Shown piece after piece: positions 31,102 to 39,867 of a stretch of DNA of 64,000 bases. Below the pieces are notes generated by a model. The model was given only the letters and a program-made list of their open reading frames with translations, did not search any database and was not told the origin of the DNA. Origin of the DNA: Tropicibacter sp. Alg240-R139 (lineage in GTDB: Bacteria > Pseudomonadota > Alphaproteobacteria > Rhodobacterales > Rhodobacteraceae). The position numbers and the translations under genes were made by a program. Each line of letters begins with the position of its first letter. Position 1 is the first letter of the stretch. The stretch is taken from NCBI RefSeq assembly GCF_900537075.1, contig NZ_UNRA01000003.1, positions 287,082 to 351,081 on the forward strand, in the 5' to 3' direction.

Positions 31102-31692
31102 CTATGGCTTGATTGCGCTTGCTTTGCGGGTCTGGTTGGCGAGATCGGACAAGACCAGTGCACCTTCGTCGGTCAATGCAAGACTTCCATCGTTTGCGTA
31201 AAGCGCCAGACCGACCAACTGGCCATTCACAACAAAGGCAGATCGCCAGTGTTCCAGGCTGGCCCCATCAACCTCGTGCCGGTCGCCGGTCAATCGCACA
31301 AACGGCAGTCCACCGCGTGTTTTCTGCTCCAGTACGGTTGCGGGTGACGCCGATGCGGCCAATTCTTTGACCGTCGGTTGACTGGCAGTGTTTGTACTGA
31401 CGGCTGTCACGGTGATCACCGCCAGGTCTTGCGCGGAAAAGAACCCGCGCACACCCAGGGTGTCGCAGCGGGCCAACATTGCGAAGCTATCTGTTGAACG
31501 CACTTTCACCGAGCGCTCGTCCACGCAATAGCCGAACGGAGCCATCAATTGGACATTGCCACTAGCGAGCGAGGCGCGTGTGACCTGATCTTTGGGGGCA
31601 GCGGCAAAGGACAGTGCGCCGTTGGGTTGACAGGCAGAGGTCAGCGCAAGACTTGCGCCGACCAGCAGTGCCCTAGAGGTCCATATAGTCAT
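31102..31692 (-). CDS. Hypothetical exported protein or lipoprotein
   Basis: A 196-residue protein with an N-terminal signal ([16 protein letters not shown]) ending at a Cys, so it may be lipid-modified, though T-S-A-C is an imperfect lipobox. The rest shows two further Cys residues ([19 protein letters not shown]) that could form a disulphide. The start at 31692 lies inside the end of ilvD on the same strand (20-base overlap), so it is likely translated from the ilvD transcript. No family recognised. Confidence 0.75.
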
Positions 31693-33406
31693 GTTTCTCC
31701 GATTTTCCGCCGGGGTGGGTGACCGCCCCCTTGTAGGTCTCGCCGACCAGTTGCGCATACTTCCACAACGCGCCCGAGGCATAAAGTGTCTCGCGCGGGC
31801 CGCTCCACGCAGCCTTGCGGGTGGTCAGCTCTTCGTCGGTCAGATCGACTGACAGCGCGCCGGTGATGGCGTTGATGGTGATCATGTCGCCGTCTTGCAG
31901 CAGCGCGATCGGTCCGCCGTGCGCCGCCTCGGGGCCGACGTGACCGACACAAAAGCCGCGCGTGGCACCGGAAAATCGACCGTCCGTGATCAGGGCAACT
32001 TTCTTGCCCATACCCTGACCCGACAGCGCCGCCGTGGTGGCCAGCATCTCGCGCATGCCGGGCCCGCCTGATGGGCCTTCGTTGCGGATGACGATCACTT
32101 CGCCTTCATTGTAGGCGCGCTGTTGCACCGCATCAAAGGCGTCTTGTTCACATTCGTACACACGGGCGGGGCCAGTAAATACGATGTCCTGGTCAGCCAT
32201 GCCCGCGATTTTCACGATGGCCCCTTCGGGTGCCAGATTGCCTTTGAGGCCAACGACGCCACCGGTTGTAGAAAGCGGCGTTTCCACAGGGTAGACCACC
32301 CGCCCATCAGCTGCGCGGTCGATCTGTGCCAACTCTTCGCCCACGGTCTGGCCGGATGCGGTCATGCACTCCTCGTGCAACAGACCTGCCTTGGACAGCT
32401 CTTTCAAGACCACCGGGACCCCGCCTGCCTCATAGAGGTCTTTGGCCACATATTGTCCGCCGGGCTTCAGATCGACGAAATAAGGCGTGTCGCGGAAGAT
32501 TTCGCAAACGTCATCCAGAAAAAAGTCGATCCCTGCCTCATGCGCCATCGCAGGCAGGTGTAGCCCCGCGTTGGTCGATCCACCGGTGCAAGCCACGATC
32601 CGGGCCGCGTTTTCCAGCGATTTGCGGGTGACGATGTCGCGTGCGCGTATGTCCTTGTCGATCAGTTTCATCACAGCCTCGCCCGAGGCAATGGAATAAT
32701 GATCGCGGCTTTCATAGGGCGCGGGCGCACCTGACGAGTTGAACAGTGCGAGACCGATCGCCTCGGACACACAGGCCATAGTGTTGGCAGTGAACTGCCC
32801 ACCACAGGCCCCGGCCGAGGGACAAGCTACCGCTTCGAGCTTTTCCAACTCACAGGTGGTCATGTGCCCGGCCTGATGCTGCCCTACGGCTTCGAACACA
32901 TCCTGGATGGTGACGTCTTTGCCGTCGATCCGGCCCGGGAGGATCGAACCTCCATAGACAAACACCGACGGCACGTTCAGCCGGATCATCGCCATCATCA
33001 TGCCCGGCAAGGATTTGTCGCAACCCGCCAGCCCGACCAACGCGTCGTAGCTGTGGCCGCGCATGGTAAGCTCCACGGAATCTGCAATCACCTCGCGCGA
33101 GGCGAGCGAGCTACGCATTCCTTCGTGCCCCATGGCGATGCCATCGGTGACGGTAATCGTGTTGAATTCACGCGGGGTACCGGATGCACCTTTGACGCCC
33201 AGTTTGACGGCCTGGGCCTGTCGGCTGAGCGCGATGTTGCAGGGCGCGGCCTCGTTCCAGCAGGTGGCGACTCCGACCAGAGGCTGATGGATCTCATCAT
33301 CGCTTAGTCCCATGGCATACAAAAACGCGCGGTGCGGAGCGCGTTCTGGCCCCTCGGTGACATGGCGGCTTGGCAGTTTGGTCTTGTCGAACTTACGTCG
33401 TAACAT
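31673..33406 (-). CDS. ilvD: Dihydroxy-acid dehydratase
   Basis: A 577-residue enzyme of branched-chain amino-acid and pantothenate synthesis, which dehydrates 2,3-dihydroxy-3-methylvalerate and -isovalerate. It shows the Fe-S cluster cysteines in [26 protein letters not shown] and [16 protein letters not shown], and the C-terminal [20 protein letters not shown]. Length matches short-form IlvD. The ATG at 33406 has an AGGGAGGC ribosome-binding site. It is divergent from the ABC-like gene at 33597, with a 190-base promoter region between them. Confidence 0.98.
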
Positions 33407-33596: not shown

Positions 33597-36500
33597 ATGG
33601 AACCCACGTTGTTTTCATTTATTTGGAAATATTCGAAAAAACAGCAATTTGTTCTGCTGCTTTTGACAATCGTTTCGTTTCCCTTCCTCTACATCTCGTT
33701 GGAACTGCCCAAGCGGATCATCAACGACGCCATCGGTTCAACCACAGAGATCGTGACGATCTGGGGCTATGACGTAACCCAGATCCAGTATCTGCTGGTC
33801 TTGTGCTTCGCCTTTCTGGCCACGGTGATCGCCAGCGGTTTCATGAAGATGCGGATCAACACCATGAAGGGCGTATTGTCCGAGCGCATGTTGCGGCGGT
33901 TGCGGTTCAAGCTGATCAGCCGGATGATGCGCTTTCCCAAGCCGTATTTCGCCACAACCAGTCAGGGTGAGCTGGTGTCGATGATCACGTCCGAAGCCGA
34001 GCCAATGGGTGGGCTGATGGGTGACGCAATCGCGCAGCCGGTGTTTCAGTTGGGTCAGATGCTGACCATTGTGACTTTCCTGTTTATGCAGAGCGTCTGG
34101 TTCGGGGTGGCTTCGATTGCACTGATCCCCTTGCAAGCCTGGCTGATCCCGATGCTGCAGCGTCAGATCAACCTGCTCAACAAGTCCCGCATCCAAGAGG
34201 TTCGCAAGCTGAGCTCTGAGATTGGTGAGAGTGCGGCGGGCATTTCAGATCTCCGGGCCAATGGTGGTTGGCGTTATCGTCTGGCACAGTTTACCGACCG
34301 CTTGGGTCGGCTGTACTATATCCGGTTCAGGATCTATCAGAAGAAATTCTTCATGAAGTTCCTCAACAATCTGATCACGCAGATGACGCCGTTCCTGTTC
34401 TATTCGGTCGGCGGTTATCTGGCGATCAAGGGTGAGATCACAGTAGGCGCTCTGGTCGCGGCTCTTGGGGCTTACAAAGATCTGAGTTCCCCATGGAAAG
34501 AGCTGCTGACCTACTACAATCAGGTGCAAGACATGTCGCTGCGGTGGGAAATCGTGACCGAACGCTTTGCGCCACGCAACATGATCCCCGACGCATTGTT
34601 CCAAGGTGAGCCCAGGGAAATCCCACACCTGAACGGCGATATCGAATTTAAAAATGTCACCGTTCTGGACAATGACGGCAACACGATCCTTGAGGATTTG
34701 AACCTGACCATCCCGCCCGGTGCCAGGGTGGCGATTCAGTCGACCAAGGCCAGCGAACGCACCGCGATGGCACAACTGCTGACGCGCGAGATCCTGCCTG
34801 TGCGCGGCGAGGTTTTGCTGTCAGGGTACAACATCGAAGAGCTGCACCAGGCCGTAATCGCGGCCCGTATCGGCTATGCCCATTCGCGACCCTATCTGTT
34901 TGACGGCACGTTGGGGGACAACCTGCTGATGCCGCTGCGCACGCAACCACAATATGACCCGGACGTGCTGCGCCGCCCTACACGCAAACAGATCGAGGCG
35001 GTCCGCGCCGGCAACAGCCCGGACTCGCTGGACGAAGATTGGATTGATCCGGGTTTGGCCGGATTGACCGACGGCGATCAGATTCGGGATTGGTGGTTCA
35101 AACTGGTCGAGGCCATGGGCATTGACGAGTTCATGTTTCGCCGCACCCTGCGCTCGCGTTTTGATCCCACGCTGCATACGGGGCTTGCACAAGAGATTGT
35201 GGCAATCCGCAGCAAAGTTGCAGAACGGCTTAAGGACCGCGGGCTGGCTGATGTGGTCTTTCGTTTTTCCCCTGACAAGTTCAATCCGGCGGTGCCCTTG
35301 GGCGGCAATCTCCTTTATGCGGCCGCCGCACGTGAAATCACGCAGGAAAAACTGGCTAAAGATGGGCGGTTTATGGCGATGCTGCGCGATCAGGGATTGG
35401 CTGACGATGCTCAGGCAATTTCACTGGGGGTTATTGAAATGCTTCGCCAAACCTTTGGTCGGGATGGCATGACCCACCCGTTGTTCTTGCGTCTGGGGCT
35501 GGACGAGGAAACCTATCTGAAGCTGTTGGAAATCGCCGATCGGATTGAGGCAAAAGGCGAGGAGATTCTCAGCGACGAAGACCGGGCGTTGGTCGTCACC
35601 GTGCCGTTTCTTTTGACGGCGGAACAAATCGGGCCAAGCTTCCCCGATGAATACAAGGACCGCATCCTGGCCATCCGCCAAAGTAAGGCGGCCGCATTGC
35701 GTGATCTGGTTGGCGGCGATTTTGTTCCGGTGTCCGAAGACGCTTATGTGCCTCGCCTGACGGTTGTCGAAAACGCGCTTTTTGGGCGGGTGTCCCTGAT
35801 GGCCGGGGCCAAAGTGGATGAGATCGAAGATTTGGTTGCCGAAGCGTTGATCGAGGCCGGGTTGCGCCGACGGATCGCTACGATCATCTATGATCTGCCC
35901 TCGGGTTTGGGCGGCGCCAACCTGCCCACGGTATTTCAGGAACGCGCGGCGTTTTCGCGGGCTGGGATCAAGCGACCTGACATTCTGGTGCTGGATCAGG
36001 CGCTGGCCAGCCACGATAGCCAAAGCCGTTTGCGTACCCGTCAGAAATTGCGCGAGCTCTTGCCCAAGTCCATCATGATCTTCATGGAAGACAACTTCGC
36101 CCACCCCGAGGCCTATGACCTGTTCATCGAAATTGAAGACGGTCGGATCGACGGTGTGTCCCGTTCCGTCGACGTACTGGATTCTGGTGGGGCGGCGGAT
36201 TTGAGCCGCAAGCTGAACATCATCGCGTCAACCGAGCTGTTTGCCAAACTCGATGCCCGCAACCAGCGCCTGCTGGCGTTTTCCGCGCAATGGTACGATG
36301 TGGCCGCCGGGCAGGTGATTTTTTCCGAGGGCCAATCCCCTGACGCCGCTTATCTGTGCCTGTCTGGCAAGGCCGAGTTGCGTTGGCCCGAAGAACAGGA
36401 TCATGATGGTCGGGCTATTTTTGTTATCGAACCAGGCCGATTGATTGGAGATCTTTCGATCATCACTGGCGAACTACGCCCATTTGACCTTATTGCTCAA

Positions 36501-36716
36501 GAAGACAGCAGTTTCTTGCGCATCGGTGCCGAAGAGTTCCGCGCCGTGATCGAAAGCGATGCCACGGTTGCGGTCAGCTTGCTGGAAACCGTCGCGGATC
36601 ATCTGGTCGAGGCGGCGTCTTTTATGCGATCCCAGAACATCAACTTGGCGGACTTCACAAACCCCGACGGTACGCCGGTACCAATGGATCTGATCAACAG
36701 GCAAGACGATGCTTGA
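33597..36716 (+). CDS. ABC-exporter-like protein with degenerate ATPase and C-terminal cyclic-nucleotide-binding domain
   Basis: A 1,039-residue protein. Residues ~1-330 form a type IV exporter membrane domain (about six helices). An ABC ATPase domain follows, but its catalytic motifs are lost: Walker A reads IQSTKASERTAM (glycines gone, Lys replaced by Arg 388), the signature reads LPTVFQER in place of LSGGQRQR, and Walker B ends VLDQA, with the catalytic Glu replaced by Gln 801. A ~260-residue insert (about 460-715) splits the ATPase between the Q-loop and signature regions. Residues ~878-1005 form a cNMP-binding domain (VAAGQVIFSEGQSPDAAYLC ... GRLIGDLSII). The next gene, a CPBP protease, overlaps its end by 8 bases. 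It is likely a sensor or scaffold rather than a pump; substrate and ligand are unknown. Confidence 0.88.
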   Translation: MEPTLFSFIWKYSKKQQFVLLLLTIVSFPFLYISLELPKRIINDAIGSTTEIVTIWGYDVTQIQYLLVLCFAFLATVIASGFMKMRINTMKGVLSERMLRRLRFKLISRMMRFPKPYFATTSQGELVSMITSEAEPMGGLMGDAIAQPVFQLGQMLTIVTFLFMQSVWFGVASIALIPLQAWLIPMLQRQINLLNKSRIQEVRKLSSEIGESAAGISDLRANGGWRYRLAQFTDRLGRLYYIRFRIYQKKFFMKFLNNLITQMTPFLFYSVGGYLAIKGEITVGALVAALGAYKDLSSPWKELLTYYNQVQDMSLRWEIVTERFAPRNMIPDALFQGEPREIPHLNGDIEFKNVTVLDNDGNTILEDLNLTIPPGARVAIQSTKASERTAMAQLLTREILPVRGEVLLSGYNIEELHQAVIAARIGYAHSRPYLFDGTLGDNLLMPLRTQPQYDPDVLRRPTRKQIEAVRAGNSPDSLDEDWIDPGLAGLTDGDQIRDWWFKLVEAMGIDEFMFRRTLRSRFDPTLHTGLAQEIVAIRSKVAERLKDRGLADVVFRFSPDKFNPAVPLGGNLLYAAAAREITQEKLAKDGRFMAMLRDQGLADDAQAISLGVIEMLRQTFGRDGMTHPLFLRLGLDEETYLKLLEIADRIEAKGEEILSDEDRALVVTVPFLLTAEQIGPSFPDEYKDRILAIRQSKAAALRDLVGGDFVPVSEDAYVPRLTVVENALFGRVSLMAGAKVDEIEDLVAEALIEAGLRRRIATIIYDLPSGLGGANLPTVFQERAAFSRAGIKRPDILVLDQALASHDSQSRLRTRQKLRELLPKSIMIFMEDNFAHPEAYDLFIEIEDGRIDGVSRSVDVLDSGGAADLSRKLNIIASTELFAKLDARNQRLLAFSAQWYDVAAGQVIFSEGQSPDAAYLCLSGKAELRWPEEQDHDGRAIFVIEPGRLIGDLSIITGELRPFDLIAQEDSSFLRIGAEEFRAVIESDATVAVSLLETVADHLVEAASFMRSQNINLADFTNPDGTPVPMDLINRQDDA

Positions 36717-37596
36717 TCGCGCCTATGCCCCGCATGAACAACTTGTCGGACCGGGCCGTGCCAATCCACAGCTTTGGAAGCTGGTGGTGGGGCTGCTGTC
36801 AATCGGGCTCTTTGTTTTTGCCCTGAACACGCTGCTGATCGGCGCGATGGCTGGCGCCGGGCCCGAGGCCTGGACGCAGAGCGTTCTGACCGGCAATTCT
36901 CCGGCGGCCATGTACGTTCTTTTGGGAAGTTTCGGTATTGTGACGTTAGCCGTGGCTCTTGCTGCACGGCAGTTGCAGCATCGCAGCCTTAGCAGCATCA
37001 TCGGGCCTGCACGGCAAACGGTTGTGCAATTCTGGAAGGTTCTGCGAATCCTGCTGATCCTGTGGGCCGTGGTTCTGATCCTGCCGCCTTATGATATGGG
37101 GGCGCCGCTGGAAAGCAATCTGGGGCTGTCCACCTGGTTGGTTCTGTTGCCGCTTTCGATGTTGGCGGTTCTGATCCAGGTCAGTGCCGAAGAAATTCTA
37201 TTTCGCGGCTACATCCAGCAGGCACTGGCTGCGCGCTTCCGTAGCCCCTTGGTTTGGATGGTCTTGCCTTCGGCCCTTTTTGCTCTTGGTCACTACCTGC
37301 CGGGGCAGGCGGGGGAAAACGCGATTCTGATCGCCCTGTGGTCCGGTGTGTTCGGCATTCTGATGGCGGATTTGACGGCACGGTCCGGAACCTTGGGTCC
37401 GGCGATTGCGCTACATCTGTTCAACAACATGATCGCGCTCTTGTTCATATCGCTGCCCGACAGCTTGAACGGCTTGTCCCTTTTCCTGGTGCCGTACGAG
37501 ATGTCGGACACCGATCAGCTGCGGTCCTGGTTGCTGGCCGACTTTGCTATGATGCTGGTTGCGTGGCTGGCCGCGCGCATTGCTTTGCGCCGTTGA
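36709..37596 (+). CDS. CPBP family intramembrane metalloprotease
   Basis: A 295-residue integral membrane protein with about seven helices and the three CPBP (Abi/CAAX protease) motifs: EEILFRGYIQQAL (Glu 161, Glu 162, Arg 166), FALGHYLPGQ with a metal-binding His, and ALHLFNNMIAL with a His and Asn. These enzymes cleave peptides within the membrane, as Rce1 does. The start ATG overlaps the end of the pseudo-ABC/cNMP gene, so translation is coupled and the two proteins probably work together. Its substrate is unknown. Confidence 0.92.
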   Translation: MLDRAYAPHEQLVGPGRANPQLWKLVVGLLSIGLFVFALNTLLIGAMAGAGPEAWTQSVLTGNSPAAMYVLLGSFGIVTLAVALAARQLQHRSLSSIIGPARQTVVQFWKVLRILLILWAVVLILPPYDMGAPLESNLGLSTWLVLLPLSMLAVLIQVSAEEILFRGYIQQALAARFRSPLVWMVLPSALFALGHYLPGQAGENAILIALWSGVFGILMADLTARSGTLGPAIALHLFNNMIALLFISLPDSLNGLSLFLVPYEMSDTDQLRSWLLADFAMMLVAWLAARIALRR

Positions 37597-37654: not shown

Positions 37655-38596
37655 ATGAACTGGATCACCAACTACGTCCGGCCCCGGATCAACTCTATCT
37701 TTTCGCGTCGCGAAGTGCCCGAGAACCTTTGGCACAAATGCGATGAATGCGGGTCGATGTTGTTTCACCGTGAATTGGCCGACAACCTGAACGTCTGCAC
37801 CGAGTGCGACCACCACATGGCGATCACTCCGCGTGCGCGTTTCAAAGGATTGTTCGACGGAGGTATTTTTGCCGAAATCGACGTGCCCGAACCAACAGCT
37901 GATCCGCTGCATTTCCGCGACCAGAAGAAATATCCCGACCGGATGAGGTCGGCGCAGAAATCCACAGGTGAAAAAGAGGCGATGCTGGTCGCCACTGGCG
38001 AGATTGGCCGCACACCCATTGTGGCAGCGGCGCAGGACTTCTCGTTCATGGGCGGCTCGATGGGGATGTATGTGGGCAACGCGATCATCGCGGCTGCCGA
38101 AAAGGCGGTTGAGCTGAAACGCCCGCTGGTCCTGTTTTCGGCCGCAGGTGGAGCCCGCATGCAAGAAGGCATCCTGAGTCTGATGCAGATGCCGCGCACG
38201 ACAGTGGCCGTTCAGATGCTGAAAGAGGCCGGTTTGCCTTATATCGTTGTGCTGACTCATCCCACCACCGGTGGTGTGACTGCGTCATACGCAATGCTGG
38301 GCGACGTCCATATCTCAGAGCCAAACGCGTTGATCTGTTTCGCTGGTCCCCGCGTGATTGAACAAACCATCCGCGAAAAACTGCCCGAAGGGTTCCAGCG
38401 CGCCGAATACCTGCTGGATCACGGCATGCTGGATCGCGTGACCAAACGCACCGAGATGCGCGAAGAGCTAATCACCATCACCCGCATGCTGATGAACCAG
38501 CCCCCCGCCGTCAAAGGCGACCTGCCCGCGCCTGAGCCTGAGGTGGAGGAAGAAACCACGGCAAAGACCACGGTGGACGAGGCTGCCAAGGAATGA
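37655..38596 (+). CDS. accD: Acetyl-CoA carboxylase carboxyltransferase subunit beta
   Basis: A 313-residue subunit that, with AccA, moves the carboxyl group from biotin to acetyl-CoA to make malonyl-CoA for fatty acids. It has the N-terminal four-Cys zinc ribbon ([10 protein letters not shown] and NVCTECDHH), the crotonase-fold core ([33 protein letters not shown]) and [16 protein letters not shown]. The tail is acidic and Pro/Glu-rich. Its stop overlaps the folC start (ATGA), the usual accD-folC arrangement. Confidence 0.98.
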
Positions 38597-39867
38597 ACGC
38601 CCCAACTTCGGACGCCATCCTCGACCGTATGATGGCGCTGCACCCCAAGATCATTGATCTGACCTTGGACCGCGTTTGGCGTTTGCTGGATGCCTTGAAC
38701 AATCCGCAGACCAAGCTGCCCCCGGTGATCCATATTGCGGGAACCAACGGCAAGGGTTCAACCCAGGCGATGATCTGCGCAGGGCTTGAGGGGGCAGGGC
38801 TGACAGCGCATGCCTATACCTCGCCGCATCTGGCGCGGTTTCATGAACGCATCCGGCTGGCGGGTGAGTTGATTGCCGAAGAGCACCTGACGCAGGTACT
38901 GGACGAATGCTACGTTGCCAATGATGGCATCGACATCACCTATTTTGAAATCACCACCGTCGCGGCCCTGCTGGCCTTTGCCCGATCCAAGGCTGATTAC
39001 ACGCTGTTAGAGGTGGGCCTGGGCGGACGACTGGATGCCACCAACGTAATCGACAAACCTGCGCTTACGCTGATCACGCCGGTGTCTATCGACCACGAGC
39101 AGTTTCTGGGCAACACCCTGGCCAAGATCGCGGCTGAGAAGGCAGGCATCATCAAACGGGGGGTTCCCGTCATAGTCGGCCCGCAGCCCGTAGAGGCGAT
39201 GGAGGTGATCGAAGACACCGCGACCCGCCTTGACGCACCACTGATTGCCTATGGCCAGCACTGGCATGTGCACCGTGAAAATGACCGGCTGATCTATCAG
39301 GACGAAACCGGCCTGCGTGATCTGCCGTTGCCCAACCTGCTGGGCGCACATCAGATCCAGAACGCGGGCGCCGCTTTGGCTGCGTTGCGCCACCTGAACC
39401 TGGGCGATGCAGCCTATGAGGCCGCCGTGACCCGCGCCGAATGGCCCGCGCGTATGCAGCGCCTGAAAACTGGCCCGCTGGTAGACGCCGCGCCCGAGGC
39501 CGAGCTGTGGCTGGATGGCGGCCACAATGCCGCTGCGGGTCAGGCCATTGGCGATCTGCTGCATACGCTGACCAAACGCCCGACGCATCTGATTTGCGGG
39601 ATGCTGAACACCAAAGATGTCGCCGGCTACCTGCGTCCGCTGGCAGTTCAGACCGATACGCTAACCGCCGTGTCAATACCGGGCGAGGCCAATACGCTTT
39701 CTGCCGAAGACACGGCTGCGGCCGCCAATTCGGTCGACTTCCCGGCGAGTACTGCGGAGTCCGTGATGGAGGCTTTGCAAGCGATCATAGCCCAAAATCC
39801 GCAGGCACGTATTCTGATCTGTGGATCGCTCTATCTGGCCGGTAACATCCTGCGCGAAAACGGCTGA
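38593..39867 (+). CDS. folC: Bifunctional folylpolyglutamate synthase / dihydrofolate synthase
   Basis: A 424-residue Mur-ligase-type enzyme that adds glutamate to dihydropteroate and folates. It has the P-loop [15 protein letters not shown], the folate-binding [14 protein letters not shown], the motif [13 protein letters not shown] and the C-terminal [12 protein letters not shown]. Length matches the family (~420-440). It is translationally coupled to accD. It ends 70 bases before the convergent zapE gene. Confidence 0.97.

Follow-up and report, generated by a model that had tools for sequence, protein, structure and literature searches.

What can a membrane protein with the fold of an adenosine triphosphate (ATP)-binding cassette (ABC) exporter do after its ATPase motifs have been lost? 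The question is raised by a gene of the marine bacterium Tropicibacter sp. Alg240-R139 (genome of 4.66 Mb), found in a stretch of 64,000 nucleotides (contig NZ_UNRA01000003.1, positions 287,082 to 351,081 of the forward strand) that is referred to below as the window. Its product of 1039 amino acids (aa) had been described in an initial annotation as a non-transporting receptor that carries a cyclic nucleotide monophosphate (cNMP) sensor and gates, or feeds, the CPBP protease encoded by the next gene. To our knowledge, bacterial exporter-fold proteins without ATPase motifs, yet under strong selection, have been little described. The analysis confirmed the observation, which marks a large family, and favoured another interpretation over the protease-centred one. 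The mechanism suggested by the combined evidence is most likely that of a cyclic-nucleotide-linked, non-transporting ABC receptor or scaffold. In window positions, the gene and the parts of its product, including the divided nucleotide-binding domain (NBD), are as follows:

33597..36716, + strand: pseudo-ABC exporter with C-terminal cNMP-binding domain, 1039 aa (open reading frame (ORF), Pfam, AlphaFold2, structural alignment)
33597..34586, + strand: transmembrane domain, residues 1–330 (ABC_membrane match at 53–289; predicted structure)
34614..34946, + strand: NBD part 1, residues 340–450, with degenerate Walker A (S382, A385, E387-R388) and S430 in the Q-loop (family alignment)
34947..35906, + strand: insertion, residues 451–770, between the Q-loop and the signature region, with repeated strand-helix units at about 554–577 and about 709–732
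35907..36176, + strand: NBD part 2, residues 771–860, with LPTVF for LSGGQ, Walker B ILVLD, and Q801 for the catalytic Glu
36300..36560, + strand: cNMP-binding domain, residues 902–988, with the cassette GDLSIITGELR (Glu to Asp, Arg961 kept)

The assignment of this ORF to an exporter-fold protein with a cNMP domain was borne out by Pfam and by structural comparison. Matches were obtained to ABC_membrane (PF00664; 70.3 bits, cut-off 28, residues 53–289) and cNMP_binding (PF00027; 53.6 bits, cut-off 27.5, residues 902–988), and ABC_tran scored 21.3 bits only, below the cut-off of 25. The AlphaFold2 model (mean predicted local distance difference test score (pLDDT), 81.7) has its top structural match in 3qf4_A (Z 24.9; root-mean-square deviation (rmsd), 5.2; 417 residues), and exporters align with it across residues 1–860. 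The NBD of ComA alone aligns with 229 residues that are scattered over positions 343–862 (Z 24.9; rmsd, 2.8); therefore, a long insertion splits the NBD fold.

Motifs and cNMP domains were counted in the 156 rows (the window protein and 155 relatives) that remained after the removal of duplicates and of reading frames that were incomplete or short. In the alignment of these rows, S382, A385, E387 and R388 of the window protein occupy the Walker A glycine and Lys positions and are followed by T389, the Q-loop Gln is replaced by S430, LSGGQ by LPTVF (776–780), and the catalytic Glu by Q801. Of the features that define an active ABC ATPase (Walker A GxxGxGK[ST], LSGGQ, and Walker B Asp and Glu), only the Walker B Asp (D800) is retained. 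The degenerate Walker A, the lost LSGGQ and the changed catalytic Glu reported in the initial annotation were thus recovered, but the change of Glu to Gln, true of the window protein, is the state of only 17 of the 69 members of its orthologue group, where this position holds K in 27, Q in 17, R in 11, T in 8, and N and H in 3 each. LSGGQ was found in none of the 156 aligned members, and so no homologue combines it with an intact Walker A. Walker A Lys-Ser/Thr together with Walker B Asp-Glu occurs in 2/156, at loci L149 and L209. These two are related to one another, have Lys-Ser in Walker A and lack the signature, which may be either an ancient condition that has persisted or a partial reversion.

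All 69 members of the window's group have Arg at the Walker A Lys position and Glu before it, and in the paralogue-type members (14/14) the Arg is preceded by Asp or Glu, so that [E/D]R stands at 387–388 in 83/83 orthologues and paralogues. The Amylibacter/Granulosicoccus-type members (n = 11) have neither Lys nor Arg at the Lys position. Among the 61 deep members, the Walker A Lys is present in 30 and the catalytic Glu in 28, the next Ser/Thr position is Glu or Asp in 53, and the Walker B Asp is replaced by Asn in 33 and by Ser in 10. From this pattern across deep and near groups it follows that the loss of the magnesium-coordinating positions is old. As judged from the aligned motifs, the predicted loss of ATPase function is a property of the entire family, and an acid-base pair tends to persist in the P-loop, shifted by one residue, where it may occupy the empty nucleotide site. 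The ratio of nonsynonymous to synonymous substitution rates (dN/dS) was 0 to 0.07 in every computable domain comparison (9 pairs), and the transmembrane domain has a mean pairwise identity of 0.77 among 18 orthologues.

The insertion (about residues 450–770), which had been missed in the initial annotation, separates the Q-loop from the signature region. Three successive segments (A, B and C), the first of which starts at the Q-loop, are similar to one another in the deep alignment (B–C, 64 columns, E 1.6e-12; A–C, 61 columns, 2.1e-6; A–B, 21 columns, 8.7e-7), while the best of 90 column-shuffled comparisons reached E 0.0027, and the E values for three transmembrane segments were no better than 0.27. 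Matching strand-helix units are present in the AlphaFold2 model near 554–577 and 709–732. The simplest reading is that the segments are tandem copies of the Q-loop plus helical subdomain, best supported for the last two units, and it appears that the insertion holds, at least partly, copies of the NBD's own helical subdomain. A known fold was also sought for this region. For residues 418–795 modelled alone (mean pLDDT 81.6), the best PDB match had E 0.069 and none reached E ≤ 0.001, and the best rows of the structural aligner placed 66–76 residues on exporters with Z at most 5.9; the absence of a clear PDB match does not establish a new fold.

A cNMP-binding domain accompanies 155/155 relatives, fused to the ABC protein in 102 and encoded separately in 53 (same strand, within 1.5 kb downstream of the ABC gene), in a sample that is not unbiased, as it consists mostly of best-scoring matches and the search profile (A1) contained the cNMP part in 6 of its 10 rows. 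Many of the distant loci had, for their part, matched over the ABC part only and not over the cNMP part. On a tree of the transmembrane domain (113 of the 156 rows, near relatives thinned), two changes between the fused and the separate state were counted. In cyclic-nucleotide binding, the Glu and the Arg of the phosphate-binding cassette both have roles. Most of the separate domains have a textbook cassette (GEIAIL...PRTAT), both GE and R are kept in 13/13 paralogues, and the Glu is kept in most deep members. In the window's group, GD stands for GE in 69/69 and the Arg is kept in 69/69. The description of the window protein as a non-hydrolysing exporter fold with a cNMP sensor therefore stands for both features, which are family-wide, but the binding of a cyclic nucleotide by the window copy, in view of its Asp, is uncertain.

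The family was detected in 129 of the 385 sampled genomes of the class Alphaproteobacteria and in 28 (27 of them alphaproteobacterial) of the 398 genomes sampled from the phylum (profile of a ten-row alignment, E ≤ 1e-90; a few matches span the transmembrane part only). Among the best 80 named loci, the closest named relative is that of Tropicibacter sp. R16_0 (94% identity), and a few are from metagenome-assembled genomes labelled Granulosicoccus, Oceanospirillaceae and Gammaproteobacteria. The reading frames are intact across many genera, and the inspected records are annotated as ordinary ABC transporters. No paper describing the family was found in the open-licence PMC literature, judged by titles and abstract openings; it is apparently a large, previously undescribed alphaproteobacterial family. 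Plasmid records with relatives number 278 at E ≤ 1e-60 and are mostly from Rhizobium and Sinorhizobium. The match in pSymB of Sinorhizobium meliloti 1021 (NC_003078.1, 842126–844426) begins at query residue 138, and most S. meliloti records match from residue 1.

The window genome contains a second copy (L002, 53% identical), and the three other genomes of the genus have two matches each. This paralogue (L002, 1504–4557, − strand, in the own genome, C7) is preceded on its own strand by a gene for a HAMP-class III cyclase (L023, 11916–13625, −). Proteins that consist of the transmembrane half only were seen in the own genome (C2; L038, 7946–8896, −) and at L095 (11607–12803, −), where the gene adjoins a full-length member.

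For comparison of the gene surroundings, a wide-flank set of 35 separate-type and 99 fused loci was used, with labels taken from the cNMP search; the 99 fused loci encode 98 different proteins, of which many are close relatives. The 987-aa protein of L164 is the same gene as that of L211. Neighbours were searched for with single query proteins at E ≤ 1e-12, so that diverged members may escape in all of the neighbour counts. Glycosyltransferase matches were found within 6.5 kb of 27/35 separate-type loci, as opposed to 0/99 fused ones, and all four queries matched in 23/35 separate-type loci. The usual layout there is a divergent run of genes for GT28, GT4, GT4, a histidine phosphatase, GT28 (GT, glycosyltransferase) and a "deacetylase-like" protein, a label that is our reading; the protein has no Pfam match. 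A Methyltransf_17 gene lies downstream in 17/35 separate-type and 0/99 fused loci, and in two rhizobial records with annotation the ABC gene is preceded by three glycosyltransferase genes and closely followed by one named cNMP-binding or Crp/Fnr.

Class III cyclase genes were found within 6.5 kb of 6/35 separate-type and 8/99 fused loci; six of the latter eight belong to the Roseobacter paralogue, four of these from the window's genus, and PF00211 was confirmed in 8/8 cyclase proteins tested. Outside the Roseobacter fused group the excess amounts to 8/43 loci (binomial p about 0.0009 against a rough expectation). The gene order ABC, cNMP, metallo-β-lactamase (MBL), cyclase is seen in L206 and L210. 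An Apyc1-like MBL protein (PF23023; 101.7 bits, cut-off 50) is encoded directly upstream of the fused pseudo-ABC/cNMP gene in L205 (7047–7880), and the MBL in the same position of L209 (7023–7847) is 83% identical to it.

Since the exporter fold is kept, the ATP-site motifs have been lost while their region stays under strong purifying selection, and a cNMP partner accompanies every relative examined, the window protein is best read as a non-hydrolysing ABC-exporter-fold member that is used as a membrane receptor or scaffold, is linked to cNMP, and has a glycan-tied ancestry; taken as a whole, this reading comes close to an even chance without quite reaching it. The cNMP domain would report a cyclic nucleotide or related ligand to the pseudo-NBD, and the enlarged helical region of the latter would dock client proteins and relay the state to or from the transmembrane bundle. 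The ancestral clients would have been the surface-glycan or glycolipid enzymes of the neighbouring genes. On the lineage towards the window, the sensor would have become fused and the gene placed upstream of CPBP-accD-folC, with CPBP translationally coupled as a possible secondary client of a system that is itself independent of CPBP.

Several results weigh against this proposal. The Walker A Lys is kept in 30/61 and the catalytic Glu in 28/61 deep members, and ATP binding is therefore possible in these. The repeat signal of the insertion is weak in the Roseobacter-type rows alone, where no pair but B–C stands out (B–C, 6.2e-5; A–B, 0.026; A–C, 0.12). The cassette of the window protein has Asp for Glu, and no PF00211 cyclase is encoded in the 64-kb window (20 matches elsewhere in the genome), so that the window protein may have a ligand other than a cyclic nucleotide. 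None of the 99 fused loci, which include the window's type, shows the glycosyltransferase link, and the cyclase excess is modest; its background rate was taken from 11 genomes that had mostly been selected because they carry such neighbours.

An unlikely but not negligible alternative is that the protein still transports, either as a very divergent exporter or as one half of a heterodimer that uses ATP at a partner site, its canonical partner being encoded elsewhere. The complete exporter fold (Z 24.9) and the Lys retained by about half of the deep members (30/61) are in its favour, and degenerate sites are common in heterodimeric exporters. Degenerate halves, however, usually still contribute one intact half-site, whereas LSGGQ has also been lost here (0/156), and no canonical exporter half was noticed among the recurrent neighbour clusters, for which no systematic test was made. 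The exporters of the MsbA, TM287-288 and TmrAB type, which rank among the closest in both sequence-profile and fold comparisons, are active ATPases and are without the insertion and the cNMP domain of the window protein.

Somewhat further down in plausibility, and quite unlikely, is a cNMP-controlled flippase or scramblase for glycolipids that would work without ATP, its transmembrane bundle moving the lipid-linked product of the neighbouring glycosyltransferases under the control of the sensor. The glycosyltransferases near 27/35 separate-type loci would fit this, as would the fact that the MsbA-type profile is the top-scoring curated exporter profile (134 bits, far below its cut-off of 602), but no glycosyltransferase match lies within 6.5 kb of any of the 99 fused loci.

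The receptor or scaffold reading has partial parallels among known systems. HetC of Nostoc PCC 7120 is an ABC exporter that contains a peptidase and a cNMP-binding domain; the latter was found to bind ppGpp in vitro and to be required in vivo (PMC10986499). HetC is thus alike in joining an ABC exporter to a cNMP-binding domain, but its cNMP domain is N-terminal, a C39 peptidase is present and a catalytic residue of the ATPase is essential, whereas here the domain is C-terminal or separate and the ATPase motifs have been lost (PMC10986499). No peptidase domain was found among the Pfam matches of the window protein at E ≤ 0.01. An exporter fold that serves as a regulator and not as a pump is known from SUR1 and SUR2 (ABCC8/9), and SUR2A and SUR2B are among the structural matches of the window protein; unlike it, SUR is an ABCC member that keeps its nucleotide-binding sites and has no cNMP domain.

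In Pycsar, a cyclase is combined with a cNMP-binding effector, and Apyc1 is the phage antagonist of this system. The class III cyclase, cNMP domain or Apyc1-like protein near some family members resemble Pycsar; the recurrent chromosomal order, the partner with an ABC-exporter fold and the absence of a cyclase from the window are differences. The PADLOC matches of the window protein, which are to PycTIR/effector models (24.1 and 23.5 bits), are confined to residues 878–1014, i.e., to the cNMP domain, and L181 matched mad3 (58.7 bits) over residues 704–868, the ABC part. A defence system (Pycsar, MADS) was therefore rejected as an explanation, as the PADLOC matches rest on shared domains and no adjacent cyclase is present in the window.

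The remaining part of the initial annotation concerns the downstream gene. The gene order around the pseudo-ABC gene is an ilvD-type gene on the opposite strand, the pseudo-ABC gene, CPBP, accD and a folC-type gene:

36709..36716, + strand: overlap of two reading frames, 8 bases, ATGCTTGA
36709..37596, + strand: CPBP/Rce1-like intramembrane protease gene, 295 aa (Pfam, motifs, locus comparison)
37655..39867, + strand: accD and folC-type genes (accD by Pfam; annotated relative)
31673..33406, − strand: ilvD-type dehydratase gene, other flank of the insertion site (Pfam, locus comparison)

The ilvD-type gene is overlapped by a listed ORF (31102–31782, −), for which an internal Met and a lipoprotein-like signal (ALTSAC) suggest a later start. 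The overlap of 8 bases with an intact CPBP gene was found as reported. The protease matches PF02517 (Rce1-like; 58.7 bits, cut-off 22.4), and the three motifs of the CPBP set (EExxxR, FxxxH and HxxxN) are readable in its sequence as EEILFR (161), FALGH and HLFNN (236). Its scores are below the cut-offs for myxosortases and CPBP sorting enzymes (Mrt_core NF040914, 35.5 vs 100; MrtS, 35.9 vs 130; MrtJ, 33.4 vs 75). The NF041647 ABC permease/CPBP family is similar in linking an ABC membrane protein to a CPBP protease, but the CPBP protein of the window scores 33.7 bits against a cut-off of 435, and two separate genes are present here.

Among the best 80 named loci, 63 adjoin accD/folC, with CPBP in between in 59/63, and no CPBP match was found beside the 17 outside the accD position. 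In a set of 67 accD-linked loci (same-genus copies included), the ABC and CPBP frames overlap in 49, often by the same 8 bases; the gap is ≤40 bases in 12 and >40 bases in 2, and 4 have no CPBP (L057, L082, L089 and L106). A further set of full-length loci had no CPBP match at 11, the remaining 4 being orthologous loci that have CPBP, and 0/39 distant family loci had a CPBP match. Within the taxonomic family (198 genomes), CPBP relatives are present in 134 (E ≤ 1e-15) and the ABC family in 39 (E ≤ 1e-90), and, as read from the coordinates, 24 genomes have the two genes side by side. In 20/20 Rhodobacteraceae loci fetched from genomes with CPBP and without an ABC match, CPBP directly precedes accD-folC; the ilvD-type gene is on the other side in 13 of these, and no ABC match is found there. 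Two CPBP genes stand in tandem before accD in L255 and L268, and paired neighbouring CPBP matches were seen in several more genomes.

Such empty sites, with CPBP-accD-folC but without the ABC gene, indicate that CPBP is probably part of the accD neighbourhood. It is likely that the ABC gene was inserted upstream of a resident CPBP gene and then translationally coupled to it, so CPBP is probably not an indispensable partner of the pseudo-ABC protein but simply its neighbour, although a functional link between the two may have arisen later. The dedicated two-protein system that had been proposed, in which the pseudo-ABC receptor gates or feeds the protease, is consequently distinctly improbable. 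The intact CPBP motifs, the overlapping (49/67) or short (12/67) junctions and the linkage within one Roseobacter group (59/63) speak for it; the 20/20 loci without ABC, the much wider occurrence of CPBP (134 vs 39 of 198 genomes), the 4 accD-linked loci without CPBP and 2 with longer gaps, and the 0/39 distant loci speak against it. Hence the receptor part of the earlier interpretation is supported, and the protease as the gated partner is weakened. Neutral decay of an old exporter, for which the loss of the catalytic motifs might be cited, is ruled out for practical purposes by the dN/dS of at most 0.07, the [E/D]R pair in 83/83 and the open frames across many genera.

Returning to the receptor or scaffold reading, the family as a whole could represent an ancient alphaproteobacterial signalling module, in which a dedicated cNMP-binding protein that senses a cyclic nucleotide was coupled, and later fused, to a pseudo-enzyme ABC exporter whose NBD had been rebuilt by tandem copies of the helical subdomain as a platform on which glycan enzymes dock and, in the case of Roseobacters, perhaps a protease too; this history is rather less likely than not, and we put it forward tentatively. 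If true, the module would give bacteria a counterpart to ABC proteins that act as receptors, and it would provide the class III cyclases, of which this genome has 20 matches, with a non-transcriptional output at the level of the membrane.

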